A stretch of 64,000 nt of DNA, from the NCBI GenBank assembly GCA_902514805.1, contig CABXSF010000003.1, positions 28,879-92,878 of the forward strand. The letters run 5' to 3'. Source of the stretch: an uncultured Pelagibacteraceae bacterium (GTDB lineage Bacteria; Pseudomonadota; Alphaproteobacteria; Pelagibacterales; Pelagibacteraceae). The translations under genes and the position numbers were made by a program. Of the stretch, positions 5,455 to 43,466 are shown piece after piece; positions within the stretch are counted from its first letter, which is position 1, and each line of letters starts with the position of its first letter. Below the pieces are notes generated by a model. That model saw only the letters and a list, made by a program, of their open reading frames with translations, made no database searches and was not told the origin of the DNA.

Positions 5455-6054
5455 ATGCAGCCTGCGTACTATGAAGACTTCACAGAGATAAAGAAGAAAA
5501 TCTGGTCAATGCTAGATGATGCAGTGACGAATAGAAGTTCTCAATTTAGAATTCCAACTTTTATATGTGGTTATAATAACGATGTAGATGGAAGAATTGT
5601 TGTTTTAAGAAAGTCAGACCAACAAAATAACTTAGTTCAATTTCATAGTGATATTAGATCAGATAAAATAGAATTACTTAAAAATAATCCCAACGCTGCT
5701 CTTTTATTTTACGATAAGGATGAAAAAATTCAGATTCGACTTAAAGTTAACTGTATAATTAATCACAAAAACGATATTACGAAAAATTCTTGGGAAAAAA
5801 CTCAACACATAAGCCGGAAATGTTATTTGGTTGATAATGGTCCAGGAACAGAGTCTGATATTCCAACTTCAGGACTAAAACCTGAGTTAGATAATTTTGA
5901 TTATACAAAAGAACAAAGCGAAGAAGGTTATAAAAACTTCACTGTTATTCAGTGTAAAATAAAATCTATTGAGTGGTTATATCTTGCTGCTAAAGGACAT
6001 CGTAGAGCAAAATTTGACTTAGAAAGTGATAAAGATACTTGGTTAGTTCCTTAA
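5455..6054 (+). CDS. Pyridoxamine 5'-phosphate oxidase family protein
   Basis: VDGRIVVLRKSDQQNNLVQFHSDIRSDKIELLKNNPNAALLFYD; FMN-binding split-barrel like. Confidence 0.8.
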   Translation: MQPAYYEDFTEIKKKIWSMLDDAVTNRSSQFRIPTFICGYNNDVDGRIVVLRKSDQQNNLVQFHSDIRSDKIELLKNNPNAALLFYDKDEKIQIRLKVNCIINHKNDITKNSWEKTQHISRKCYLVDNGPGTESDIPTSGLKPELDNFDYTKEQSEEGYKNFTVIQCKIKSIEWLYLAAKGHRRAKFDLESDKDTWLVP

Positions 6055-6563
6055 AAAATTGATTTAGAATATTTTTTCCAATTGTCTTGATAATGTTTGG
6101 TATTTTCAAACACTGCTTTTTTTTCTTCTTCCGTTACTTGTCTAATAATTTTTCCAGGAGATCCAACAACTAAAGAGTTATCGGGTATCTCTTTATTTTC
6201 TGTAATCAAAGCCTTAGCTCCTATAATACAATTTTTTCCTATCTTTGCTTTGTTAAGGATCACTGCACCAATTCCAATTAAACTGTTGTCACCGATTGTG
6301 CATCCATGAAGCATTACTAAATGTCCAATGGTTACATTTTTTCCAACCTTTAAAGGACAACCTGGATCAGTGTGTAATACACAACCATCCTGAACGTTTG
6401 AGCCTTCACCTATATGAATATTTTCAATGTCACCTCTTAAGGTTGCATTAAACCAAACACTTGTATTTTTATCTAATGTTACATCTCCAATAATAACAGC
6501 ATTAGGAGCTACCCAATTTTCGCCAGAGTTTTTTGGTTTTTTATTTTCCAAATCGTAAAACAT
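6051..6563 (-). CDS. Gamma carbonic anhydrase family protein (left-handed beta-helix)
   Basis: NAVIIGDVTLDKNTSVWFNATLRGDIENIHIGEGSNVQDGCVLHTD hexapeptide repeats. Confidence 0.93.
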   Translation of the reverse strand: MFYDLENKKPKNSGENWVAPNAVIIGDVTLDKNTSVWFNATLRGDIENIHIGEGSNVQDGCVLHTDPGCPLKVGKNVTIGHLVMLHGCTIGDNSLIGIGAVILNKAKIGKNCIIGAKALITENKEIPDNSLVVGSPGKIIRQVTEEEKKAVFENTKHYQDNWKKYSKSIF

Positions 6564-6580
6564 AATTTATATATTCTAAC

Positions 6581-7135
6581 ATGGCACTTTTAAAAACTCC
6601 AATATGTGATTTCGGTCAGAACGCTATAGATTTTAAGCTTAAATCAATTAATGGGGAATTATTAACATTGGATAATGTCAAAGGCGATAATGGGACTTTG
6701 ATAATGTTTATTTGCAATCATTGCCCTTATGTAAAAGCTATAATAAGAGAACTTGCAAATGATTGTGCAAAACTTAAAGAAGATGGCATTAACTCAGTTG
6801 CAATAATGTCAAATGATACCAAAAACTATCCTGAAGACTCTTTTGAAAATATGAAAAAGTTTTCTGATAGATATAACTTTTCATTTCCTTATTTGATTGA
6901 TGAAACTCAAGAAATCGCAAAAAAATATGATGCCGTGTGTACACCAGACTTCTTTGGCTACAACAAAAACCTTGAGCTCAACTATAGAGGAAGAATAAGA
7001 GAATTAAATGATTTAAAGCCTGTCGGTTCGGGTGACAGTGAGTTGCTTAAATCAATGAAGTTAATTGCTAAAACCCAACAAGGTCCGAAAGAACAATATC
7101 CTAGTATGGGATGCAGTATTAAATGGTTTAAATAA
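6581..7135 (+). CDS. Thioredoxin-like/AhpC-TSA family protein
   Basis: MFICNHCPYVKAIIRELA motif, thioredoxin-like fold protein. Confidence 0.85.
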   Translation: MALLKTPICDFGQNAIDFKLKSINGELLTLDNVKGDNGTLIMFICNHCPYVKAIIRELANDCAKLKEDGINSVAIMSNDTKNYPEDSFENMKKFSDRYNFSFPYLIDETQEIAKKYDAVCTPDFFGYNKNLELNYRGRIRELNDLKPVGSGDSELLKSMKLIAKTQQGPKEQYPSMGCSIKWFK

Positions 7136-8223
7136 TGAATTTAATTATCACAAGAAATTTTCCACCTGATGTTGGGGGCATGCAAAATCTTATGTTTGGC
7201 CTTACAAAATCATTGTCAGAGCACATGATGGTTAAAGTATTTGCTGATCAACATTATCAGCAAGAAAAATTTGATGAAGACTTATCATTTTCAATTGAAA
7301 GAGTCGGTGGGCCGAAAATCTTTAGAAAATTTAGAAAAGCCTCTTTAATTAATAATTACTTACAAAAAAATACTAAAGTAAAAAATATTATCTCTGATCA
7401 TTGGAAAAGTTTAGAAAATATAAATACCAAAATAAGAAAAACATGTCTTATTCACTCTAAAGAGATAAATCATAAAAAAGATTCTTTTCTTAATAAACGA
7501 GTTGTTAGAGTGTTAAATAACTGCGATCATATCATTGCAAATTCAAACTTCACAAAAAACCTAGGTATTGAAATCGGTGTTAATGAGGAAAAAATTAAAG
7601 TTATTAACCCAGGTGTATTTCCAAGAGAAGAAGTAAACCCAAAAATAGATGAAAAAATATTAAAGAAACTTGAAGGAAAAGAGCCAAGACTAATTACTGT
7701 TGCTAGATTTGATAAAAGAAAAAATCATGAAAAAATAATTATGTCTTTGAGAAATTTGAAAGAAATTTACCCAAACATAATTTATATTTGTATTGGTCAA
7801 GGCGATACTTTGGAATCTCAGAAAAAACTTATTAAAGAATTAAAACTTGAGAGTAATGTTTTGTTTTTGAAAAATTTATCTAAAGATGAAAAAAACTCTT
7901 ACTTAAAAAATTCAAATGTTTTTGTTATGCCATCGATTTCTTATAAAAAATCTGTAGAGGGATTTGGAATTGTCTATGTTGAAGCTGCTCAATATGGAGT
8001 TCCATCAATTGGTGGAAAGGTTGGTGGTGCGTCTGACGCAATTGTCAATAATGAAACTGGCCTTCTTTGTGATGGAAACAATTTAGATGAAATCTATCAA
8101 AGTTTAGTTGATATATTGCAGAATAATAAATTCAAGGTTTTGGGAAAAAATGCAGAAGAAAATGCAAAAAAATTTCTTTGGCCAGAAATCTTAAAAAAAT
8201 ATTTAGAAATTTTAAAGATCTAA
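7135..8223 (+). CDS. Glycosyltransferase family 4
   Basis: RNFPPDVGGMQNLMFGL; C-terminal SVEGFGIVYVEAAQYGVPSIGGKVGG GT4 motif. Confidence 0.9.
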   Translation: MNLIITRNFPPDVGGMQNLMFGLTKSLSEHMMVKVFADQHYQQEKFDEDLSFSIERVGGPKIFRKFRKASLINNYLQKNTKVKNIISDHWKSLENINTKIRKTCLIHSKEINHKKDSFLNKRVVRVLNNCDHIIANSNFTKNLGIEIGVNEEKIKVINPGVFPREEVNPKIDEKILKKLEGKEPRLITVARFDKRKNHEKIIMSLRNLKEIYPNIIYICIGQGDTLESQKKLIKELKLESNVLFLKNLSKDEKNSYLKNSNVFVMPSISYKKSVEGFGIVYVEAAQYGVPSIGGKVGGASDAIVNNETGLLCDGNNLDEIYQSLVDILQNNKFKVLGKNAEENAKKFLWPEILKKYLEILKI

Positions 8224-9563: not shown

Positions 9564-10604
9564 TTATTTATTTAGAGAAGATGCAAAATTCCAAGAACAA
9601 TCAAAGCTTGGGATATAAACTCTATCTAATGACGTATTGCCAAAACTTTTTTCAAAAAGATTTAACCATTTATCAACTTGTTTAGGTTTTTTATCTTGGC
9701 TTCCAACTTGTGCAGTTATTGTTCCATTTGGCTTAAGAATTCTTTTTAAAGATTTGATATTTTTTGCGGCCAAATCAATACAATACTGATCATCGTTTAA
9801 GTCCACATAAATTTTATCATACTTATTATCTTCAACTGATTTAATACTTTCAAATGCATCTCCCCATACGCACTGCACATGATTTTTTGTCGTTGCTTTC
9901 TTACCTACTTTAGATAAATATTTTTCACACATTGTTACAACTTCAGGGTCTAATTCATACCAATCAATTAATTTAAAACCTTTAGATATGCATTCTCTTG
10001 CTACTCCTCCATCCCCTCCACCAATGATTGCGGTTTTATCATTTGACGGATTAAGTTTTAAACCAGAGTTAACAAAATTTGAGCTATACAAATGTTCGTC
10101 ATTTTCTGCTACTTGAAGTTCACCGTCTATAAAAAGGGATTTGCCAAACTGTTCTAAATCTAAAATTTCAATGTTTTGACCAACTTTTGATGTAAAGTTT
10201 TCTAAAACATCTTTTACCATGTAATATTTTTTTAAACCTGGGGAGCTATAAATATCATCATAATAACTTGTGGTGTCTCTATTAAACTCTTTTTTAACAA
10301 TTCTTTTATGTTTGATTTCTTTTTTTAAAATATCATAAGCAACATTAGGATTTACTTTACCGCATGTAAAAAAATCAAAACTTATAATCCCTCTCTCAGG
10401 GAAAGTATGAAAACTAATATGACTTTCGGCTAATAAAGCCACAAGAGTAAAGCCCTGTGGTTCGAATTTATACTTTGAAATTTCTAGAACAGTTACCTTT
10501 GCCTTCTTTGATATCTTGTAGACTAGTTTTTCAAAGAATTTTGGTTCGTACTCTTTTTCAGTACCTATGATATCTAAAGTGACGTGCTCCCCAACCTTCG
10601 TCAT
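9564..10604 (-). CDS. Fused S-adenosylmethionine decarboxylase - spermidine synthase
   Basis: N-term LAESHISFHTFPERGIISFDFFTCG (AdoMetDC Glu-Ser self-cleavage site); C-term EHLYSSNFVN...AIIGGGDGGVARE...YELDPEVV...DKIYVDLND (SpeE). Confidence 0.93.
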   Translation of the reverse strand: MTKVGEHVTLDIIGTEKEYEPKFFEKLVYKISKKAKVTVLEISKYKFEPQGFTLVALLAESHISFHTFPERGIISFDFFTCGKVNPNVAYDILKKEIKHKRIVKKEFNRDTTSYYDDIYSSPGLKKYYMVKDVLENFTSKVGQNIEILDLEQFGKSLFIDGELQVAENDEHLYSSNFVNSGLKLNPSNDKTAIIGGGDGGVARECISKGFKLIDWYELDPEVVTMCEKYLSKVGKKATTKNHVQCVWGDAFESIKSVEDNKYDKIYVDLNDDQYCIDLAAKNIKSLKRILKPNGTITAQVGSQDKKPKQVDKWLNLFEKSFGNTSLDRVYIPSFDCSWNFASSLNK

Positions 10605-10610
10605 AAAAAG

Positions 10611-11258
10611 TTATCCTTTTTTATAGTTTTTAACTTTTTCTAATATTACATCCATCTCGCTTGATGAAAGAATCTTAGGTTCTCCTAACTTTATTGCATT
10701 TATGTATTGATGGCAAATATTTTCAACTTCTTCTGCAAGTTCGAAAGCTGAGTTCAAGTTATCCCCATAAGCAACTTGACCGTGATTAGACATCAAGCAT
10801 GCTTTTCTATTTTTTAATGCTTCAATAATATTGTCAGATAGTTCTTGTGTTCCAAAAGTTGCATACTTTGCACACTTTATATTATCTCCTCCAGCTAAAG
10901 CTATCATGTAATGAAAAGCTGGAATGTCTTTATTGTGTGCAGATACAGCTGTTGCGTGTGGTGAGTGAGCATGAACGACTGCTTTTGCATCAGCCTTCTT
11001 TAAATAAATATCTTTATGAAATCTCCATTCCGAAGAAGGCTGCAAACCTTTTTCATCATATCTCCCTTCTAAAGATACAAAGACGATATCATCAGCTTTT
11101 AAGCTGTCGTATTTTTTGCCTGATGGAGTAATTAAAAATCCCTCTTCATTATTGTTCTGAGCTTTAAGTGAAATATTTCCCGATCTTAACGGAGATAAAT
11201 TTGTACTATTTAGTTTTTGAGCAAATTTTATTATTTCTTCTCTACTTTTAACGTCCAT
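10611..11258 (-). CDS. Class II aldolase/adducin family protein (candidate MTA-salvage aldolase or MtnB-like)
   Basis: RSGNISLKA, VVHAHSPHATAVSAHNKDIPAFHYMIALAGG, SNHGQVAYG; located with mtnA and mtnP. Confidence 0.88.
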   Translation of the reverse strand: MDVKSREEIIKFAQKLNSTNLSPLRSGNISLKAQNNNEEGFLITPSGKKYDSLKADDIVFVSLEGRYDEKGLQPSSEWRFHKDIYLKKADAKAVVHAHSPHATAVSAHNKDIPAFHYMIALAGGDNIKCAKYATFGTQELSDNIIEALKNRKACLMSNHGQVAYGDNLNSAFELAEEVENICHQYINAIKLGEPKILSSSEMDVILEKVKNYKKG

Positions 11259-11571
11259 AATTTTTCAAATATTTTAAAAATAAATATCCAAAAATTACAC
11301 CTACGCCTATTAGGATATACTGGTAAAGCTTTAATAGTAAAAACTGTGGTGGAAGCTCACTTTCATAAGGGTTCTGCATAAAAAAGTTTTTTGAACCGTC
11401 TTCATACAAATCAACAGGTCCAATAACTAAATAAATTCCATAAATTGCTATATAAATACATGGTGCTAAAGAAAAATAAATTAATGTCTTATTATTCTTA
11501 ACAATACTTAGCCAATTAGCTGAAACTCCAACTAATAAAAGACAAACAAGTGATAAAATAAGTGGGTTCAT
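11248..11571 (-). CDS. Small hypothetical membrane protein (about 3 TM segments)
   Basis: Overlaps both neighbours (operonic); hydrophobic segments. Confidence 0.7.
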   Translation of the reverse strand: MNPLILSLVCLLLVGVSANWLSIVKNNKTLIYFSLAPCIYIAIYGIYLVIGPVDLYEDGSKNFFMQNPYESELPPQFLLLKLYQYILIGVGVIFGYLFLKYLKNYGR

Positions 11572-12638
11572 TTAAATAAATTTTTTAATCCTTTTTCTGA
11601 TGCTTCGCAAATACCATTTTCTGTTATTAAACCTGTTATATATTTTGCTGGAGTAACATCAAATGCTAAATTCATAGCCTTACTTTTATTTGGATATATC
11701 TTTACTTTTTTTACCTTTCCATCTTCGTCAACACCTTCAATTTTTGACAACTCTTCTGAACTTCTTTCTTCGATAGGAATATCTTTAGAATTTTTAATTT
11801 TCCAATCGATAGTCGAACTTGGTAAAGCCACATAAAAGGGTATATTGTTATCTTTTGCAGCCAGGGCTTTTAAATAAGTTCCCACTTTATTACATACATC
11901 ACCATTTGATAATGTGCGGTCAGTTCCAACAATACACATATCAACTTGTCCTCTTTGCATCAAAATTCCACCGGTATTATCTGCAATGATTGTATTTTTG
12001 ATACCTTCCTCATTTAATTCATATGAGGTTAAATTTGCACCTTGGTTTCTGGGCCTAGTTTCGTCTGCCCAAACATGGACCGGAATACCTTTTTTATGTG
12101 CGTGATAAATTGGTGATGTGGCAGTGCCCCAATTAATTGTTGCGAGCCAACCAGCATTGCAATGAGTTAAAATATTTACTGTATCTTTTTTTTTATTATA
12201 GATTTCCTCAATAATCTTTAATCCATTTAAACCAATACTTTCACAAAACTTTATATCTTCTTCACAAATTTCCTTTGCTTCATTTAATGCAACAACTAAA
12301 ATTTTTTCGGAATTTATCCCTGAAAGTTTGTTCATCATTCTATCTACTGCCCATTTTAAATTAATTGCAGTGGGTCTTGATTTTATTAATTCCACAGCTG
12401 ATTTTTTTAAAAAAGATTGGTCATTATTTTCCAATATTGCTAATACTAAACCATATGCAGCTGTTGCACCTATTAAAGGGGCGCCTCTTACTTCCATTGA
12501 TTTAATAGCATTTATTGCTTCTTTAACTGTTTTTAAATTTTTAATTGTAAAATGATGTGGAAGCTTTGTTTGATCAATTATTTTTACTATATTATTTTCA
12601 AACCAGATCGTGCGGTATTCTTTGCCTTCAATTTTCAT
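11568..12638 (-). CDS. mtnA: S-methyl-5-thioribose-1-phosphate isomerase
   Basis: MEVRGAPLIGATAAYGL; LTHCNAGWLATINWGTATSPIYHAHKKGIPVHVWADETRPRNQGANLTSYEL. Confidence 0.95.
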   Translation of the reverse strand: MKIEGKEYRTIWFENNIVKIIDQTKLPHHFTIKNLKTVKEAINAIKSMEVRGAPLIGATAAYGLVLAILENNDQSFLKKSAVELIKSRPTAINLKWAVDRMMNKLSGINSEKILVVALNEAKEICEEDIKFCESIGLNGLKIIEEIYNKKKDTVNILTHCNAGWLATINWGTATSPIYHAHKKGIPVHVWADETRPRNQGANLTSYELNEEGIKNTIIADNTGGILMQRGQVDMCIVGTDRTLSNGDVCNKVGTYLKALAAKDNNIPFYVALPSSTIDWKIKNSKDIPIEERSSEELSKIEGVDEDGKVKKVKIYPNKSKAMNLAFDVTPAKYITGLITENGICEASEKGLKNLFK

Positions 12639-33391: not shown

Positions 33392-34096
33392 ATGATAACA
33401 ATTTTACTAACTTTTGTTCCATCAATAGTTTTATTATTATATTTTACATTATCCGATAGATTTAAAGAGCCTAGAGGAACAGTTTTGTTAATTTTTTTTC
33501 TGGGTTTTTTAATATGCTTACCTGCAGGAATTTTAAATGGTTTAAGTCATGATTTTTTTTATGATGGATCAAAATATTCAGAAAATCTAACTAGTAGTTT
33601 TTTAGGTCCTGCTTGGGCTGAAGAATTATTAAAATTTTCAATTCTTTATTTGATAGTTTTGAAAAGAAATGAATTTAATGAACCCATGGATGGCTTGGTT
33701 TATGGTGTTGTTGTTTCACTAGGTTTTGCAACTTACGAAAACTATACTTATGTATATCAGTGGGCAGAAATAATAGCCAAAGAGGAAAATGTTGACTATG
33801 CTGAGTTGTCATACTTAATAGCGTTAGGAAGATCTTATTCCGCAATACCTATGCATGGTCTTAATGGTGCTGTGATGGGTTATTACTTTGGCATGTATGC
33901 TTTTACGGGTAATAAAAAATTTTTAATTTTATCTTTGGCATTACCATACTTGTTTCATGGTTTTTATAATTTCTTAGTATGGCCAAATCCTATGATAATA
34001 ATTGGAATTTTAGTTATTATTTCCCTTTATTTACACAATGAACTTAAGGAGAAACAAAAATTAAAAAAAAAAGAAAATGAAACAAAAAAAATTTAA
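33392..34096 (+). CDS. PrsW-type intramembrane metalloprotease
   Basis: GPAWAEELLKFSILYLIVLKRNEFNEPMDGLVYGVVVSLGFATYENYTYV; AIPMHGLNGAVMGYY, HGFYNF motifs. Confidence 0.88.
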   Translation: MITILLTFVPSIVLLLYFTLSDRFKEPRGTVLLIFFLGFLICLPAGILNGLSHDFFYDGSKYSENLTSSFLGPAWAEELLKFSILYLIVLKRNEFNEPMDGLVYGVVVSLGFATYENYTYVYQWAEIIAKEENVDYAELSYLIALGRSYSAIPMHGLNGAVMGYYFGMYAFTGNKKFLILSLALPYLFHGFYNFLVWPNPMIIIGILVIISLYLHNELKEKQKLKKKENETKKI

Positions 34097-34099
34097 GCA

Positions 34100-35650
34100 A
34101 TGAGATATCTAAAATTTACATTTATTTTATCAATGTTTGTTTTGTTATTTAGTAATCAAAGTAACTCTATGGATAATAGATGCTATGAATTTATAGAAGG
34201 GCTAAAAAATTTAGAATATGATAAATTTTCATCAAATACAGAACAAAATGTTTTTCAAGATTTTGGTTTTGATTTATCAACTGATCCTATCAAAGATGTT
34301 GGTTTTGATACTGACAAAGATGCTCACAAATTAAGAAGAGATAAAGAAAATTATCCAATGATTGGAGCCTTAACAAGCATGAAAGGAATTGAAGATTTCA
34401 AGTATAAAGATGTTGTCATTTCAGTAAACGGTTTAGACCTAAGTAAATTGGAAGACGATAAAATTAGTGATTTGGTGTATTATGTTGATTTAAATAAACT
34501 ACACGAAATTGTTATTAAAAGAGATAAAAAAAAATTAATAAAGAAAATTAAGGCCCATGAGTATCAAAAAGAATATCGATATTTTCAATTTTATTTAAAT
34601 AGTATTAATAAAATTGATTTAAAAAACTCGACTGTAAAATTCTCAGCATTTATAAGTTCTGATAAAGAATACGCCGAAAGTGTTGGCTGGGCTATTGTTG
34701 AGCACGCAAAAAAAACTATCACTCGTTTTGATGAGGAAAGTCAAGAAGTTAAGACTATAGATTGTGATGAAATCCCATATGATTATGCAAAAGAAAATAG
34801 ATTACCTATATCAGGCGAAACTTTTGGTTTTTACGACTTAATTTCTGAGGACAAAGATAAAGTTTATGAAAGTGTGAGTATATATGTTTACGATGATGAG
34901 TCCACAGATGATAAAACAGATAGCTTATTAAGTATCACTTATTACTCTGAGGGAGAATGGGAAATAAAAAATGAATTTAATTTAACTTCATTTCCTTTTG
35001 ATAAACAAAAAATAATCATAAATTTAACTGATGCTGAGGATTTTGAAAAAGTTTATTTAGCCGCTCTTGACACAAATTTAAGAATGATCGACTATAATAA
35101 AAAAAATTTAAAAATACCTGGATGGAATGTTGTTGATGTAAAATTTGATACAAATAATAATTTTGATTTAGGGGGTGTAGTTTTTAATCAAGCCTCTATA
35201 ACCGTTGATATAGAAAGACAATCTTTTTATTATATTTTTAAAATTATATTACCAATAGTTCTTATTTTAATTATTTGTTGGAGCTCAGTGTGGCTAAATC
35301 CTAGAGAGGTTGAATCAAAACTCACAATTACAATTGTGTGTTTGTTGTCACTTATAGCATATAATTTTGTAATTGATAATGAATTACCAAAACTTGAATA
35401 TTTAACTATAATGGATTGGATTATTTTAGCCTCATATTTTTTTGCTGCTGCACCTAATATGTTGGCAATTATTTCATTTCAATTATCCGAAAAAATAAAA
35501 TATAGAAAATTAGGTCAAAAGGTTGATTTATTTGGTAAAAGATATGGAATTACTTCTTATATATTTATAATTTTGTTTATAATAATTATTAATGTAAGCT
35601 CAGTTCCAGAGAATACGATCAACGCATTAAGTTGGGCAATGATGAGATAA
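34100..35650 (+). CDS. Pentameric ligand-gated ion channel homologue with N-terminal PDZ-like domain
   Basis: FNLTSFPFDKQKIIINL (beta6-beta7 FPFDxQ loop); ERQSFYYIFKIILPIVLILIICWSSVWL (M1), ESKLTITIVCLLSLIAYNFVIDNELPKLEYLT (M2-M3 loop), M3 and M4; upstream IEDFKYKDVVISVNGLDLSKLEDDKISDLVYYVDLNKLHEIVIKR is PDZ-like. Confidence 0.85.
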   Translation: MRYLKFTFILSMFVLLFSNQSNSMDNRCYEFIEGLKNLEYDKFSSNTEQNVFQDFGFDLSTDPIKDVGFDTDKDAHKLRRDKENYPMIGALTSMKGIEDFKYKDVVISVNGLDLSKLEDDKISDLVYYVDLNKLHEIVIKRDKKKLIKKIKAHEYQKEYRYFQFYLNSINKIDLKNSTVKFSAFISSDKEYAESVGWAIVEHAKKTITRFDEESQEVKTIDCDEIPYDYAKENRLPISGETFGFYDLISEDKDKVYESVSIYVYDDESTDDKTDSLLSITYYSEGEWEIKNEFNLTSFPFDKQKIIINLTDAEDFEKVYLAALDTNLRMIDYNKKNLKIPGWNVVDVKFDTNNNFDLGGVVFNQASITVDIERQSFYYIFKIILPIVLILIICWSSVWLNPREVESKLTITIVCLLSLIAYNFVIDNELPKLEYLTIMDWIILASYFFAAAPNMLAIISFQLSEKIKYRKLGQKVDLFGKRYGITSYIFIILFIIIINVSSVPENTINALSWAMMR

Positions 35651-36027
35651 TTATGACTTTTAGTGAATCTGTATCCACATGTTTAAAAAAATATTTTGTC
35701 TTTGAGGGTAGAGCTAGTAGATCAGAATATTGGTGGTTTCAATTAATAGTTTCACCTTCATACTTCATTTCAACAATTCTAGAAAATGAAATTGGATATT
35801 TTTTTCTAGGAATAACGTTGTTTACCTTAATTCCAGCAATCTCTGCAGGTGTGAGAAGATTACATGATACAAATAGATCAGGATTTTTTTTATTAATAAG
35901 CTTTATTCCATTTATTGGTGGATTAGTTCTTTTATTTTTTTTAATACCTGAGGGTACAAAAGGGAAAAATCGATTTGGTCCAGATCCACTAAAAAGAGTT
36001 ACTAGAAAAAGAAATAAAAAAAGTTGA
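35632..36027 (+). CDS. DUF805 membrane protein
   Basis: YFVFEGRASRSEYWWFQL; RRLHDTNRSGFFLLISFIPFIGGLVLLFFLIPEGTKGKNRFG. Confidence 0.92.
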   Translation: MGNDEIIMTFSESVSTCLKKYFVFEGRASRSEYWWFQLIVSPSYFISTILENEIGYFFLGITLFTLIPAISAGVRRLHDTNRSGFFLLISFIPFIGGLVLLFFLIPEGTKGKNRFGPDPLKRVTRKRNKKS

Positions 36028-36029
36028 TT

Positions 36030-36536
36030 TTATAACTCTCTTTTTTTTTGACTTTTATAGTCTGTTTTCTCACCTAGATTTAATTTAAGTTTTAGTTCCG
36101 CAATTTTTTTTTCTAACTCAATAACTTCTATTGATATTTGTTCTTTTTCTTTTTCATCTACTTTATCATCATCTAGAGCTTTTCTAGTTTCCTCCATTAC
36201 ATCTCCTATTGACTCACCTAGTCTAAGTAAATTATTGATTATTTCATCGCTACTGTCATGATCTTTTCTATTTTCAATTTCTTTCTTAAGTAAAGTTTCA
36301 TAAGCTGTAAGAAAAGGAGTGCCTTTTCCAATCTTTTTGCAATGTATATCTAATTCTAATCCATCTTGAATATGAAGCTGTCGATCCTTAAAATTTGGAT
36401 TACTGATATGTTCTATAGCTTTTCTCTTTTTTTCAATAATTGTCTCAATATTTTCATAACCAATATCATCAGCCAAATCTTTTAAAACCCTCTCGAATGA
36501 ATAGGGTTTTCTTGGATAACCTTTTTTCTTATTCAT
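36030..36536 (-). CDS. Hypothetical charged/coiled-coil protein
   Basis: Long ORF, Lys/Glu-rich C-terminus; no family recognised. Confidence 0.65.
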   Translation of the reverse strand: MNKKKGYPRKPYSFERVLKDLADDIGYENIETIIEKKRKAIEHISNPNFKDRQLHIQDGLELDIHCKKIGKGTPFLTAYETLLKKEIENRKDHDSSDEIINNLLRLGESIGDVMEETRKALDDDKVDEKEKEQISIEVIELEKKIAELKLKLNLGEKTDYKSQKKREL

Positions 36537-37378: not shown

Positions 37379-38179
37379 ATGAATAAGGTAATAAAAATAG
37401 ATAAAAAACTTAAAAAAAATAAATCAATAAAAAAATCGAATATCATTGATATAATGAGTTCATTAGCTAAAATTAAAAGTAAAAAATCAAATGAAATATT
37501 AGTCTTAGCTCCCTCAGAATTAGATTATAAACCTAAAAAATGTCAAAGATGTTTTTATTTGGAAAAAAATCATAAAATTGGACCTAAGGATTTTCCTCCA
37601 CCAGTTTTCTCAAGATTTGATGTAGTTCAACAAGCTTATTATAAAGATAAAAATACATCTGACCTTACTAATGAATTGCCCTCTGGAAGAATTATGAGTA
37701 AAGATGAACTTCCAGGAAGAGTAGTCTCAGAAATATTAACAGATAATAAAGGTAGAGAATTCATTTTAGGTGGAAGACCAGATATTCTAATAAAGTTTGA
37801 TAAAAATGGTTATGGCATAATTGATTTTAAAACTACAAAAATTTCTGATGACAAATCGGAGAACTACAAATACCAATTAGAAGCTTACGCTCAAATATTC
37901 TCAAAACCTGGATCTACCAAAAGTAAAAAAACACCCTTGTTGAAACCCATCACACATATGGGAATATTGCAATTTGATCCAAGTGATATTCAAAGTCACA
38001 ATAATGATAGTTGCGATATGAGAATGAATATATCCTATTCACCATTAAAAAGAGATGAAAAAGATTTCTTTGAAAATATAACAAAGATAATAGACATTTT
38101 AAATAATCCCTCTATTCCAAGCTTCACTAAAGATTGTAATTATTGTGATTTCGTTAAAAAACAATTAAGCCATTTCTAA
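37379..38179 (+). CDS. PD-(D/E)XK nuclease family protein (RecB/Cas4-like) with CxxC pairs
   Basis: GGRPDILIKFDKNGYGIIDFKTTKISDD...YKYQLEAYA catalytic-type core; N-terminal KKCQRCFYL and C-terminal CNYCDF Cys pairs. Confidence 0.85.
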   Translation: MNKVIKIDKKLKKNKSIKKSNIIDIMSSLAKIKSKKSNEILVLAPSELDYKPKKCQRCFYLEKNHKIGPKDFPPPVFSRFDVVQQAYYKDKNTSDLTNELPSGRIMSKDELPGRVVSEILTDNKGREFILGGRPDILIKFDKNGYGIIDFKTTKISDDKSENYKYQLEAYAQIFSKPGSTKSKKTPLLKPITHMGILQFDPSDIQSHNNDSCDMRMNISYSPLKRDEKDFFENITKIIDILNNPSIPSFTKDCNYCDFVKKQLSHF

Positions 38180-38183
38180 GAAA

Positions 38184-38477
38184 ATGAAAAAAATAAATAT
38201 TAAAATAAATAATGAAATTATTAGGTGTCCCAGTTGTAATTCAAAAAATATAGATGAAAATGGGATACAGGATTTGTGTGAGCATTTAGTTTTTATAGGA
38301 ACTAGTCATTCAGATGATCCGGAAATTGATACTGAAAATTTAAATTCAAAATATGACCTAGAAAAATATGAGTTTATTACTGATTTTTTTAAAGCAGAAC
38401 TAGATGATAATTATTCATTATTTGTTGATTCAAGTACCAGACAGATAGATGTTTATTTGTTATATAAGAATTTATAA
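38184..38477 (+). CDS. Hypothetical protein with N-terminal zinc-ribbon-like CPSC knuckle
   Basis: MKKINIKINNEIIRCPSCNSKNIDENGIQDLCEH...; operonic between nuclease and hsdM. Confidence 0.65.
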   Translation: MKKINIKINNEIIRCPSCNSKNIDENGIQDLCEHLVFIGTSHSDDPEIDTENLNSKYDLEKYEFITDFFKAELDDNYSLFVDSSTRQIDVYLLYKNL

Positions 38478-38479
38478 TT

Positions 38480-39934
38480 ATGTTTGAACAAACCTTTAAA
38501 AATATTGACGATATACTTTGGAAGGATGCAGGTTGTAGTACTGAACTAGATTATGCAGAACAATCATCATGGATATTATTTCTTAAATGGTTAGATGATT
38601 ATGAAAAAGAGAAAGAAACAAAAGCATCACTAGAAAATAAGAAATTTAAGCCTGTATTAGACAAAGAATACCAATGGAGTTCTTGGGCTATTATCAAAAA
38701 AAAAGATGGAAAAGTAGATTTTAATAAAATTCTTACTGGCCCTGATTTAAAGAAGTTTGTTGATGATAAGTTATTTCCTTATCTCTCTTCATTTAGGAAT
38801 AAAGCAGAAAATTTTAATACTATTGAATATAAAATAGGTGAGATATTCTCTGAAGTTAAAAATAAACTTCAAGATGGTTACACCTTAAGAGATGTAATTA
38901 ATGAAGTTGATAATCTTGAGTTTAAAAGTAGTGAACAAAAACATGAATTAAGCGCTTTATATGAAGAAAAAATCAAGAATATGGGTAATGCTGGTCGTAA
39001 TGGTGGAGAGTACTACACTCCAAGACCTTTAATTAAATCTATAATTAAAGTAATAGACCCTAAAGTTAGAGAAACAGTTTATGATGGAGCTGTAGGTAGT
39101 GCAGGTTTTTTAGTTGAAGCATTTGAGCATATGAGTAAATCAAAATCTTTGACAGCTTCAGAACTTATAACTCTTCAAACAAAATCTTTTTATGGAGCGG
39201 AAAAGAAAACCTTAGCTTACATTATTGGTATTATGAATATGATACTTCATGGAATTGAAAGTCCTAATATTGTTCATCAAAATACATTAGAGACTAATAT
39301 TCAAGAGATACAAAACAAAGACAGAGTAGATATAATTCTTGCTAACCCACCTTTTGGTGGCAAAGAAAAAACAAACATACAAGAAAATTTTCCAATTAAA
39401 ACGGGTGAGACTGCCTACCTATTCCTTCAACATTTTATAAAAAAACTTAAAGTTGGTGGAAGATGTGGTGTTGTTATCAAAAATACTTTTTTAAGTAATA
39501 CAGATAATGCGAGTATTGCACTTAGAAAACAGCTTCTTGAAGAATGTAATTTATTCACAATACTTGATTTACCAAGTGGAGCCTTCCTTGGAACAGTAGT
39601 AAAAACAGTCGTTTTATTTTTTGAAAAAGGAAAACCAACGGAAAAAGTTTGGTACTACCAGCTTAATACTGGAAGAAGTATGGGAAAAACTAACCCACTT
39701 AATGAGAATGATTTAGTAGATTTCATAAAAACAGCTAAATCACAAAAAAACACTAACAATAGTTGGTCTATAGATTTAAAAGAAATCAATAAAGACGATT
39801 TAGATTTATCAGTCAAAAATCCAAACACTAAAGAATTAATTGATGAAAGAACTCCAGAGGAAATTGTTAATGAAATAAAAAAATTAGACAAAGAATCCTC
39901 TAAGCTTTTAAATGAAATTGAAAAACTTTTATAA
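38480..39934 (+). CDS. hsdM: Type I restriction-modification system methyltransferase subunit
   Basis: NGGEYYTPRPLIKSII; VYDGAVGSAGFLVEAF; DIILANPPFGG (NPPF motif). Confidence 0.97.
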   Translation: MFEQTFKNIDDILWKDAGCSTELDYAEQSSWILFLKWLDDYEKEKETKASLENKKFKPVLDKEYQWSSWAIIKKKDGKVDFNKILTGPDLKKFVDDKLFPYLSSFRNKAENFNTIEYKIGEIFSEVKNKLQDGYTLRDVINEVDNLEFKSSEQKHELSALYEEKIKNMGNAGRNGGEYYTPRPLIKSIIKVIDPKVRETVYDGAVGSAGFLVEAFEHMSKSKSLTASELITLQTKSFYGAEKKTLAYIIGIMNMILHGIESPNIVHQNTLETNIQEIQNKDRVDIILANPPFGGKEKTNIQENFPIKTGETAYLFLQHFIKKLKVGGRCGVVIKNTFLSNTDNASIALRKQLLEECNLFTILDLPSGAFLGTVVKTVVLFFEKGKPTEKVWYYQLNTGRSMGKTNPLNENDLVDFIKTAKSQKNTNNSWSIDLKEINKDDLDLSVKNPNTKELIDERTPEEIVNEIKKLDKESSKLLNEIEKLL

Positions 39935-41139
39935 TGTGGAAAACCGTTAAAATTTCAGATGTTTGTGAATTTCAAAGTGGATTATGGAAAGGTAAAAAAG
40001 GACCTTTTGTAAATGCAAATGTAATAAGAAATACAAATTTTAAACCAGATGGAAAACTTTCTTACGAAAATATAGCTTTCCTTGAAGTCGAAGTTAAAGA
40101 ACTTTCAAAACGACAATTAATAGATGGGGATATTATACTAGAAAAATCAGGAGGAGGAGAGAAAACTCCTGTTGGAAGAGTTTGTTTATTTAAAAATAAA
40201 GAAAGCGAAATTCCTTACAGTTTAAGTAATTTTACTTGTTTAATTAGAGTAAAGCAGCACTCAATTCTATACTACAGGTATCTTCATATATTTCTCCATT
40301 ATATGTATGCTGCTGGAAAAACTGAACCAATGCAGAGAAATTCTACTGGAATAAGAAATTTACAACTCAAAGAGTATAAAGAGATTTGTATACCTCTCCC
40401 ACCTATTGAGGAGCAAAAAGATATTGTTACTAAACTTGATGCACGTTTTAAGGAGATTGATAGTAAAATAAACCTTAATTTAAAAAAATTAATTTATATA
40501 GAAAAATTAAAAAAGTCTGTCTTAAATAAAATTTTTGGTAAAGATTTAATTAAGCTAAATGAGGCTTCAACATTAATCAAAAGAGGAATTTCACCAAAAT
40601 ATACTGAAACAGGTGGAATTGTAGTAATTAATCAAAGATGTGTCAGAAATCATATAATTAATTTTTCAAATGCAAGACGTCATAATGTAGATTTAAAAAA
40701 AGTTCCTAATGAACGGATTGTAGAAAAAGGTGATGTTCTAATTAATTCTACTGGTCAAGGGACTTTGGGAAGAGTAGCACAAGTGTTAGAAAAACCAGCG
40801 GAAAAAACAACAGTAGACTCTCACGTAACTATTGTTAGACCTAAAAAAGAATTATTTGATTTTGGTTTTTTTGGAAAAGCATTGATTAAGATTGAAGACG
40901 AGCTTAAGAAAGCTGGTGAAGGCACAAGTGGACAAACTGAATTGTCTAGGTCAAAGTTAGAAAGTAATTTTTTTATTCCTTATTTAAGATCTATTCAAGA
41001 CCAAAAAGAAGTTTCATTTAAATTAGATAAAATTTTTGAGAACACATCTGTCTCTGCTAATTTAATAAATAAAACAATTCAAAGTTTAAAAGCACTCAAA
41101 TTAAGTTTATTAAATTACGAACTAAATAAAACTGGATGA
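39934..41139 (+). CDS. hsdS: Type I restriction-modification specificity subunit (two target-recognition halves)
   Basis: LPPIEEQKDIVTKLDARFKEID conserved region; second half GDVLINSTGQGTLGRV...TTVDSHVTIVRP. Confidence 0.94.
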   Translation: MWKTVKISDVCEFQSGLWKGKKGPFVNANVIRNTNFKPDGKLSYENIAFLEVEVKELSKRQLIDGDIILEKSGGGEKTPVGRVCLFKNKESEIPYSLSNFTCLIRVKQHSILYYRYLHIFLHYMYAAGKTEPMQRNSTGIRNLQLKEYKEICIPLPPIEEQKDIVTKLDARFKEIDSKINLNLKKLIYIEKLKKSVLNKIFGKDLIKLNEASTLIKRGISPKYTETGGIVVINQRCVRNHIINFSNARRHNVDLKKVPNERIVEKGDVLINSTGQGTLGRVAQVLEKPAEKTTVDSHVTIVRPKKELFDFGFFGKALIKIEDELKKAGEGTSGQTELSRSKLESNFFIPYLRSIQDQKEVSFKLDKIFENTSVSANLINKTIQSLKALKLSLLNYELNKTG

Positions 41140-43466
41140 ATGAAGCTGACACAAGACGTGAATTAATTGACCCTAAGATTAAAGAAGCTGGCTGGGGTGA
41201 GATTGACGGAAGTTATATTAGAGCTGAATTTCAAATTACTAATGGTGAAATTAAACCTGGTGGTATTAGAGCGGGTATTATTAAAGCTGATTATGTTTTA
41301 ATTTATAAAAATAGAAAATTAGCAGTAATAGAAGCTAAAAAAGATGAACTTCCAGTTAGTGATGGTGTTGGGCAAGCTAAAGACTACGCTCAAAAGCTTA
41401 AGATTTTAACTACTTACTCTACTAACGGAAAGGAAATTTACGAAATTAATTATGCTAAAGATGAAAAAGGTAAAATGTTTATTACTTCTGAAGGCCTGGT
41501 TGATAAATTTCCTTCTCCTGAAGAATTATGGATTAAAATATTTAAAGATAAAAATGAATGGTCAAGTAAATTTGACTCAATAAATTTTGAGCCATTTAAA
41601 GGAAACAGAGAACCTAGATACTATCAAGAAATAGCAATCAATAATACTCTTGATGCTATAGCAGATAAACAACAAAGAATTCTCCTTACTCTTGCAACGG
41701 GTACAGGTAAAACAGTAATAGCATTTCACATTGCATGGAAACTATTTCAGTCTAGATGGAATATTCAAAGAGATGGAAAAAGAATTCCAAGGATATTATT
41801 CTTAACAGATAGAAATATCTTAGCTAATCAGGCTTTTAATTCTTTCGGTGCATTTGATGAAAATGCCTTAGTAAGGATAACTCCTCAAGATGTGAGAGAT
41901 AAAGGAAATGTTCCAACTAATGGCTCTGTGTTCTTTACTATATTTCAAAGTTTTATGTCAGGTCCAGAAAACAAACCTTATTTTGGTCAGTACCCTGCTG
42001 ACTTTTTTGATTTAGTAATTATCGATGAGTGTCATAGAGGTGGAGCAAAAGATGAAAGTAGATGGAGAAGTATATTGGAATATTTTTCTTCTGCAGTACA
42101 AATAGGATTAACAGCAACACCAAAAAGAAAATTTAATGCAGATACTTATGCTTACTTCGGTGAGCCTGTTTATACCTACTCACTCAAAGATGGAATTAAA
42201 GATGGTTTCTTAACACCATTTAAAGTTAAAAGAATTCAAACATCAATGGATGAATATGTTTATACGGGTGATGATGATATTTTATCTGGAGAAGAAGAAA
42301 TAAATGAGGGTGAAGTTTTTGAGGAAAAAGATTTTAATAAAAGAATTGTTATAGAGGAAAGAGAAAAGAAAAGAGTTCAATTGATGCTTGATAGTATAAA
42401 TCCAAAAGAAAAAACACTAGTGTTCTGTGCAAGTATTGCGCATGCCGGAATGGTAAGAGATTTAATTAATCAAATATCTGTTAATCCACCAGCTGATTAT
42501 TGTGTGAGGGTAACAGCTAAAGATACTAAAACAGGTGATACTCATCTAAGACAATTCCAAGATAACGAAAAAACATTACCAACAATCCTAACTACTAGTC
42601 AAAAACTTAGCACTGGTGTTGATGCACTAAATATAAGAAATATAGTTTTAATGAGACCTGTGAACAATATGATTGAATTTAAACAAATCATTGGAAGAGG
42701 AACAAGATTATTTGAAGATAAGTTTTATTTTACGATTGTTGATTTTGTTGGAGCGTCTGCAAACTTTTCAGACCCTGAATGGGATGGTGAACCTATACCT
42801 GAAGAACCACCTGAGGAAAAACCAGAAAAACCATTTGAAGCTGGTGAAGAAGGTGGAGGTGAAGAACCGCCAGAGCCAAAACCTCCTAAAGAAAAAATAG
42901 TGATTAAGCTTGCTGAGGGAAAAGAGTTGACTATTAAATCAATGTCTACTTCCCTATTCTATTTTCAAGGACAACCTGTTACCGCAGAAGAGTTTATAAA
43001 GAAACTATTTAATACTATTACCCTACCTAGTATCTTAAAAAGTGAAGAGGAATTGAGAAAACTCTGGTCGTCACCAATTACGAGAAATGAACTTTTAAAA
43101 AAATTAGAGGATAATGGTTTTACCAAACAAGATTTAAAATCTATCCAAACACTAATTGAAGCTGAAGATAGTGATATATTTGATGTGATAGAACACATAG
43201 CATATAGCAGAAAACCTATTCAAAGAGCAACAAGGGTAGCTAATGCAGAGAGTAAAATTCATAGTAATTTAGACTCTAACCTAAAGGAATTTATTGATTT
43301 TGTACTTAGCAAGTATGTTGAGGGTGGTGTTGATGAACTTGATATTAATCGTCTTAGTGATTTAGTTATTCTAAAATATAAAACTTTACATGATGGTCAA
43401 AAGGTATTGGGTGGTGCAGATAAAATTAAAAAATCATTTATAGATTTTCAAAAATATCTTTATTAA
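41136..43466 (+). CDS. hsdR: Type I restriction endonuclease/translocase subunit
   Basis: LTLATGTGKTVIAFHIAWKLF (Walker A), IDECHRGG, IGLTATPKR, QIIGRGTRL; N-terminal ADYVLIYKNRKLAVIEAKK nuclease motif. Confidence 0.96.
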   Translation: MNEADTRRELIDPKIKEAGWGEIDGSYIRAEFQITNGEIKPGGIRAGIIKADYVLIYKNRKLAVIEAKKDELPVSDGVGQAKDYAQKLKILTTYSTNGKEIYEINYAKDEKGKMFITSEGLVDKFPSPEELWIKIFKDKNEWSSKFDSINFEPFKGNREPRYYQEIAINNTLDAIADKQQRILLTLATGTGKTVIAFHIAWKLFQSRWNIQRDGKRIPRILFLTDRNILANQAFNSFGAFDENALVRITPQDVRDKGNVPTNGSVFFTIFQSFMSGPENKPYFGQYPADFFDLVIIDECHRGGAKDESRWRSILEYFSSAVQIGLTATPKRKFNADTYAYFGEPVYTYSLKDGIKDGFLTPFKVKRIQTSMDEYVYTGDDDILSGEEEINEGEVFEEKDFNKRIVIEEREKKRVQLMLDSINPKEKTLVFCASIAHAGMVRDLINQISVNPPADYCVRVTAKDTKTGDTHLRQFQDNEKTLPTILTTSQKLSTGVDALNIRNIVLMRPVNNMIEFKQIIGRGTRLFEDKFYFTIVDFVGASANFSDPEWDGEPIPEEPPEEKPEKPFEAGEEGGGEEPPEPKPPKEKIVIKLAEGKELTIKSMSTSLFYFQGQPVTAEEFIKKLFNTITLPSILKSEEELRKLWSSPITRNELLKKLEDNGFTKQDLKSIQTLIEAEDSDIFDVIEHIAYSRKPIQRATRVANAESKIHSNLDSNLKEFIDFVLSKYVEGGVDELDINRLSDLVILKYKTLHDGQKVLGGADKIKKSFIDFQKYLY

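Follow-up and report, generated by a model that had tools for sequence, protein, structure and literature searches.

Does the gene at positions 34100-35650 encode a Cys-loop-type ion channel that carries a PDZ domain, and what could such a channel sense in a marine bacterium? Both questions were raised by a preliminary description, made from sequence alone, of the window, i.e., the whole 64,000-nucleotide stretch of Pelagibacteraceae DNA analyzed here. SAR11 bacteria and their relatives are very abundant in the ocean and have small genomes, and the natural ligands and physiological roles of most bacterial pentameric ligand-gated ion channels (pLGICs) are undetermined. The open reading frame given in that description (34100-35650 on the + strand, 516 aa) held exactly, and its product was divided into the following parts.

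34100..35650, + strand: gene of the very likely PDZ-pLGIC fusion, a complete open reading frame of 516 aa
34100..34168, + strand: signal-peptide-like segment (residues 1-23), a hydrophobic N-terminus read from the sequence, with helix 2-18 in the AlphaFold2 (AF2) model
34172..34213, + strand: N-terminal helix with Cys28, seen in the full-length and N-terminal domain (NTD) models and supported by conservation of Cys28
34259..34555, + strand: very likely PDZ domain, about residues 54-152, based on NTD profiles, fold matches and homologues above the Pfam PDZ cut-off
34574..35218, + strand: pLGIC ligand-binding beta-sandwich with the FPFDKQ Pro-loop, based on phmmer (from residue 288 on), the AF2 model and Foldseek
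35228..35647, + strand: four-helix transmembrane domain M1-M4, based on PF02932, phmmer and AF2 helices
about 35306-35383, + strand: M2 pore codons within the M1-M4 domain

The signal-peptide-like start suggests that the protein is exported, an inference from the sequence only. All landmarks of prokaryotic pLGICs claimed in the preliminary description were located in the remainder of the protein, namely FPFDKQ (residues 298-303), M1 with ILP (KIILPI, 381-386), M2 (ESKLTITIVCLLSLIAYNFVIDNELPK, 405-431), and the LPKxxYxT loop between M2 and M3 (LPKLEYLT, 429-436); F298, P299, D301, and Q303 are invariant among 23 sequences. The same ligand-binding beta-sandwich, FPFDxQ loop, four transmembrane helices, and LPKxxYxT loop characterize ELIC, GLIC, and sTeLIC. 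Searches against PDB chains by phmmer matched ELIC with an E-value of 4.3e-17 over about residues 288-457 and GLIC at ~3e-13, the NCBIfam model of bacterial ligand-gated channels LGIC_1 scored E 1.5e-21, and the Pfam transmembrane model PF02932 gave E 9.8e-5, under its gathering score. The Pfam model of the pLGIC ligand-binding domain (LBD) was silent genome-wide, also for the controls, and is thus uninformative. The full-length AF2 model was built on a shallow alignment of four sequences and is of low confidence (mean pLDDT 54); it contains the expected beta-rich domain followed by four helices (377-398, 401-428, 436-462, and 469-501), and its Foldseek matches are led by GLIC, ELIC, and sTeLIC (probability 1.00, TM-score to target about 0.45). 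Thus, by sequence homology and fold, the window channel is a pLGIC of the Cys-loop superfamily; its pentameric assembly and ligand-gated conductance are inferred.

The pore residues are strongly conserved. Counting E405 as position -2', the previously proposed Glu at -2', Thr at 2', and Leu at 9' were all confirmed and are retained in 22, 22, and all 23 of the 23 homologues, respectively, as are A13' (23/23), F16' (21/23), and D19' (19/23). GLIC likewise has E at -2' and T at 2'. The residues E-2', T2', and D19' are consistent with cation selectivity, as in the cation-selective bacterial pLGICs, which remains an inference without selectivity data. Computation also revealed a conserved cysteine pair: Cys28 (codon 34181-34183, conserved in 21/23) and Cys222 (codon 34763-34765, 20/23) are the only two in the window protein that lie outside its membrane helices. 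Two homologues, L019 and L021, have no Cys in either column, and in L013 a Cys lies close by, out of register. We infer that Cys28 and Cys222 likely form a disulfide pinning the N-terminal helix to the ligand-binding domain, a feature by which the window channel differs from ELIC, GLIC, and sTeLIC. A lipoprotein anchor via Cys28 was rejected, since no lipobox is seen and the two cysteines are present and absent together.

The N-terminal region was claimed to resemble a PDZ domain, and this claim held by sequence profile, by Pfam matches in homologues, and by fold. The window protein alone has no Pfam PDZ match, and its assignment therefore depends on profiles, fold matches, and evidence from homologues; its only direct hint is a faint match of residues 101-161 to SpoIVB (NCBIfam, E 0.059). 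Two homologues with the same architecture as the window channel exceed the Pfam PF00595 cut-off of 23.2 bits (L033 with 28.5 bits and L009 with 26.7 bits), and PF00595 is detected at E <= 0.1 in 7 of 23 members. A profile of eleven NTDs matched the PDZ domain of Aquifex aeolicus RseP at E 1.2e-11 in a structure search, and all 60 of its listed matches are PDZ proteins or PDZ-containing proteases. When the profile was restricted to the five NTDs nearest to the window's, without L033 and L009, almost solely PDZ chains were retrieved, the best being SpoIVB and RseP at E near 8e-4. In addition, a full-length profile of the PDZ-pLGIC proteins retrieved a genuine RseP in another alphaproteobacterium. 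The PDZ profile matched no short, PDZ-less channel, and four long homologues (L013, L014, L019, and L020) gave no convincing score against it.

The structural model points to the same fold. Joint alignment of short and long channels misplaced the NTD, and modelling was therefore performed on the long ones only. In the resulting AlphaFold model, the NTD core (pLDDT 67-89) shows the order strand-helix-strand-strand expected for PDZ, and the model is of low confidence before about residue 76. Foldseek matches of this core are led by the PDZ domains of YlbL, DegS, DegQ, HtrA, and RseP, with a probability of about 1.00 and E-values of 0.007 or worse; DegS bound to the YQF and YRF peptides is among the leading matches. 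The PDZ features assigned to the window NTD are the candidate loop DFGF, YPMIGALT, KDVVISVNGLDLSKLEDDKISDLV, and HEIVIKRDKKKLIKKIKA, and the segment originally named as PDZ-like (YKDVVISVNGLDLSKL...HEIVIKR) proved to be its best-supported part. The position required a small correction: the domain does not lie at the extreme N-terminus but between the short segment bearing Cys28 and the first LBD strand, where PDZ-less sister channels have a gap of just about 16-20 residues. ELIC, GLIC, and sTeLIC have no PDZ domain, whereas the window channel carries about 100 residues of it before the first LBD strand. Thus, PDZ is shown by computation for the family, and both the PDZ identity of the window NTD and the combined PDZ and pLGIC architecture of the window protein are very likely. 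Neither of the two outcomes that the preliminary description had set as refuting, an N-terminus without a PDZ match and a predicted structure lacking the pLGIC fold, was obtained. An NTD of the jelly-roll type, as in DeCLIC, was ruled out, since the region of about 130 residues matches PDZ only.

The tripeptide Phi-G-Phi at residues 55-57, within DFGF (54-57), resembles the carboxylate-binding loop of PDZ domains; it is a candidate only, as it falls in a low-confidence stretch of the model (pLDDT under 50) and no binding data exist. Sequence motifs also bear on the possibility that only a degenerate remnant of PDZ is left in the NTD, a passive lobe that binds no ligand and merely covers the top of the LBD or makes it stiffer. 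Such a relic would fit the low NTD identity between subfamilies (about 20%) and the loss of a PDZ score in some long channels. However, the Phi-G-Phi glycine is retained in 22/23 sequences and the G-D-x-I-x-x-I-N-G core is recognizable in most members, and we regard the relic explanation as very unlikely. Binding of peptide C-termini by a functional PDZ domain is in turn inferred, with no binding data and no ligand known.

The fusion constitutes a conserved family. A scan of genome contigs gave three loci only, and the wider relatives were obtained from a search of genome sets. The channel is present in 27 of 298 genomes of the window's order, 20 of which have the long form; PDZ-pLGIC proteins occur in two families of this order (SAR11) and in a further alphaproteobacterial family. 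Despite the small genomes, a minority of SAR11 bacteria and relatives have retained such channels, in some cases with several in one genome. At the class level, long forms were found in other families; for instance, one other alphaproteobacterial family has a channel match in 30 of 52 genomes, mostly long, and the two members checked match PDZ_2 with E-values of 0.0015 and 0.0017, below the Pfam cut-off. Among matches from a phylum sample of 399 genomes, none except the window's covered the PDZ columns, and several long proteins from this sample start like periplasmic binding proteins. In the tree of the channel core, the long or short label changes twice, with several deep forks poorly supported; NTDs of different subfamilies are as little as about 20% identical. 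A phage origin of the channel is unsupported, as no channel relative was found on viral contigs. As a separate observation, locus L044 encodes two long channels (5690-7486 and 10049-12124; 598 and 692 aa), with larger N-terminal regions that give no score against the PDZ profile.

The genes surrounding the channel in the window are as follows.

33392..34096, + strand: PrsW-family intramembrane protease (PF13367 E 1.1e-33; NF033739 E 2e-33)
35653..36027, + strand: DUF805 membrane protein (PF05656 E 2.6e-26)
36030..36536, - strand: phage-CII-like (CP76) protein in convergent orientation, presumably a regulator (PF06892 E 1.1e-5, slightly short of the cut-off)

The prsW gene ends 3 bp upstream of the channel gene on the same strand, and the ATG of DUF805 follows 3 bp after the channel stop codon. 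Because of this spacing on each side, the three genes likely form an operon. Just downstream, at 37379-43466 of the window, we noted a PD-(D/E)XK nuclease gene and then a type I restriction-modification set (HsdM, HsdS, and HsdR-like). Membership of the channel in an anti-phage defense system was considered and found no support, as PADLOC reported no defense-family match for the channel, PrsW, the CP76-like protein, or DUF805.

The linkage of the channel with proteases, which the preliminary description did not contain, is shown by computation. Of the 20 order genomes with a long channel, 13 have PrsW as its neighbor or no more than about 4 kb away; PrsW is found in 17/27 channel genomes vs 18/271 others (Fisher p 1e-11, a value uncorrected for phylogeny and overstated by kinship). 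The CP76-like protein occurs in 13/27 channel genomes vs 14/271 others and also accompanies the channel in the other alphaproteobacterial family. In the clade of L016, L019, L020, and L021, the channel of all four members adjoins not PrsW but a conserved gene pair for two exported proteases, one caspase-like (PF00656) and one trypsin-like (PF13365), and at the L009 locus PrsW and trypsin are found together. Thus, two channel lineages came to adjoin proteases of different kinds. The caspase-like and trypsin-like pairs are located at L047:3439-6612, L050:2803-5507, L051:9470-12215, and L052:3693-6433; their trypsin-like proteins end in an acidic DxDxDG-like motif, for which calcium binding is possible.

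PrsW occurs also in the same kind of island without the channel, beside other cargo such as an Hsp70/GrpE/TerB set or membrane proteins with two helices that come in pairs, and the link between the channel and PrsW may for this reason reflect a shared genomic hotspot. Three channel-less PrsW islands (L069:8452-11342, L075:5973-7513, and L078:8187-9964) encode paired uncharacterized proteins of ~255-300 aa with a TM-like stretch near both ends, which represent a different PrsW-linked system. In L065:9122-13724, the PrsW locus and DUF805 are followed by GrpE-like, Hsp70, and TerB-like genes and a gene with an HExxH-like motif.

This neighborhood permits an explanation in which PrsW cleaves or regulates the channel or a client bound to its PDZ domain, so that the channel would serve as a substrate or adaptor in regulated intramembrane proteolysis and conduction would be secondary. 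In its favor are the tight PrsW-channel linkage (3 bp in the window), the fact that the nearest PDZ relatives are proteases of intramembrane and site-1 type (RseP and SpoIVB), and the presence of the EELLK, YEN, and His motifs of the PrsW family in the window PrsW protein. However, the strong conservation of pore residues argues that conduction is under selection, PrsW is missing from the vicinity of roughly one in three PDZ channels, and it is found with unrelated cargo; we consider this explanation unlikely.

In the closest relatives, the operon goes on with a twin-arginine-type FAD amine oxidase and then a second, PDZ-less channel that is most similar to sTeLIC and ELIC (L031:6925-9478 and L032:6883-9442). 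Primary amines open ELIC (PMC3119659), and the amine oxidase and sister channel could possibly be an amine-sensing or amine-clearing pair. Both genes are cleanly absent from the window between DUF805 and the CP76-like gene (35653-36536, compared with L031:6533-9987), and no second channel was found in the window genome (completeness only about 70%). Since the PDZ channel is intact without them, it can stand alone.

The sister channel bears on another possible, though less likely, explanation, in which PDZ is a module for assembly or clustering rather than a sensor, and an ordinary small ligand (e.g., an amine) gates the LBD. The domain would then bind the periplasmic C-terminus of its own or a sister channel, or tether the channel to a partner. 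The C-terminus of pLGICs after M4 is periplasmic, and several long channels terminate in a short conserved tail whose final residues are hydrophobic (ISWMTGF, LSWIVPSF, LISWMVPY, and IFWMAGIF), which would suit a PDZ groove. Hetero-assembly is possible given the PDZ-less second channel in the operon of relatives, and the similarity of that channel to the amine-gated ELIC, together with the amine oxidase gene ahead of it, is in line with an amine ligand. On the other hand, the tails differ between channels, with the window subfamily ending in MMR, MIR, or MVR and others in WMS or LSK, and in the window the PDZ channel is retained without the amine oxidase and sister channel.

The reading that we prefer to these alternatives is a cation channel under PDZ control, with peptide C-termini tied to proteolysis or envelope stress as the sensed signal. 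According to it, the gene product would form one subunit of an inner-membrane pentamer of the ELIC/GLIC type that is probably selective for cations, with a bacterial PDZ domain of the protease type inserted in the periplasm between the Cys-bearing helix and the first LBD strand. This domain would bind periplasmic peptide C-termini, either protease products or mislocalized envelope proteins, as DegS does, and its peptide-bound state would bias channel gating, so that proteolytic or envelope-stress information is converted into cation flux. The linked proteases (PrsW, or the exported caspase-like and trypsin-like enzymes) may generate the ligand or clear it, or may act on the channel itself by processing it. 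That peptides bind, that binding is coupled to gating, and that the proteases have such a role are inferences drawn from gene linkage and from what DegS-type PDZ domains are known to do. The idea that gating responds to peptide C-termini had already been suggested and is still an inference, for which the genomic protease linkage provides new fitting evidence. Taken as a whole, the statement could as readily prove wrong as right. We lean against a bolder reading, in which the protein would be a peptide-gated bacterial member of the Cys-loop superfamily whose cation pore is opened by protease-generated or stress-exposed C-termini, so that proteolysis outside the cell would directly produce an ionic or electrical signal, the gene of the partner protease lying alongside.

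Comparison with known systems delimits what would be new. The periplasmic proteases DegS, RseP, and HtrA are the closest PDZ relatives by profile and fold, and in DegS the PDZ domain reads exposed C-termini to switch activity in envelope-stress sensing; however, their output is proteolysis, whereas that of the window protein would be an ion channel, the protease being a separate linked gene. DeCLIC (PMC9897478, PMC12664993) is likewise a multidomain bacterial pLGIC whose channel is modulated by an additional N-terminal module in the periplasm, but this module consists of two jelly-roll lobes with calcium sites. The fusions of bacterial pLGICs with PBP-I, MCP-N, and Cache domains (Tasneem et al., PMC549065), of which PBP-I-like forms were also met in our phylum sample, similarly place an N-terminal sensor domain on the channel; those domains bind small molecules, whereas PDZ domains bind peptide C-termini. 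PDZ is unmentioned in that survey of pLGIC fusions. The preliminary description had presumed the fusion uncharacterized, and in the open-licence full texts searched we found no bacterial PDZ-pLGIC, although a description unseen by us is possible and public protein databases may list the combination. Nothing in the open-licence literature searched linked SAR11 to ligand-gated channels. A domain that binds peptide tails on a channel with conserved protease neighbors provides a concrete ligand class and a pathway to examine, and if the proposed function is true, the Cys-loop superfamily would include sensors of proteostasis or envelope stress in addition to those of small molecules.
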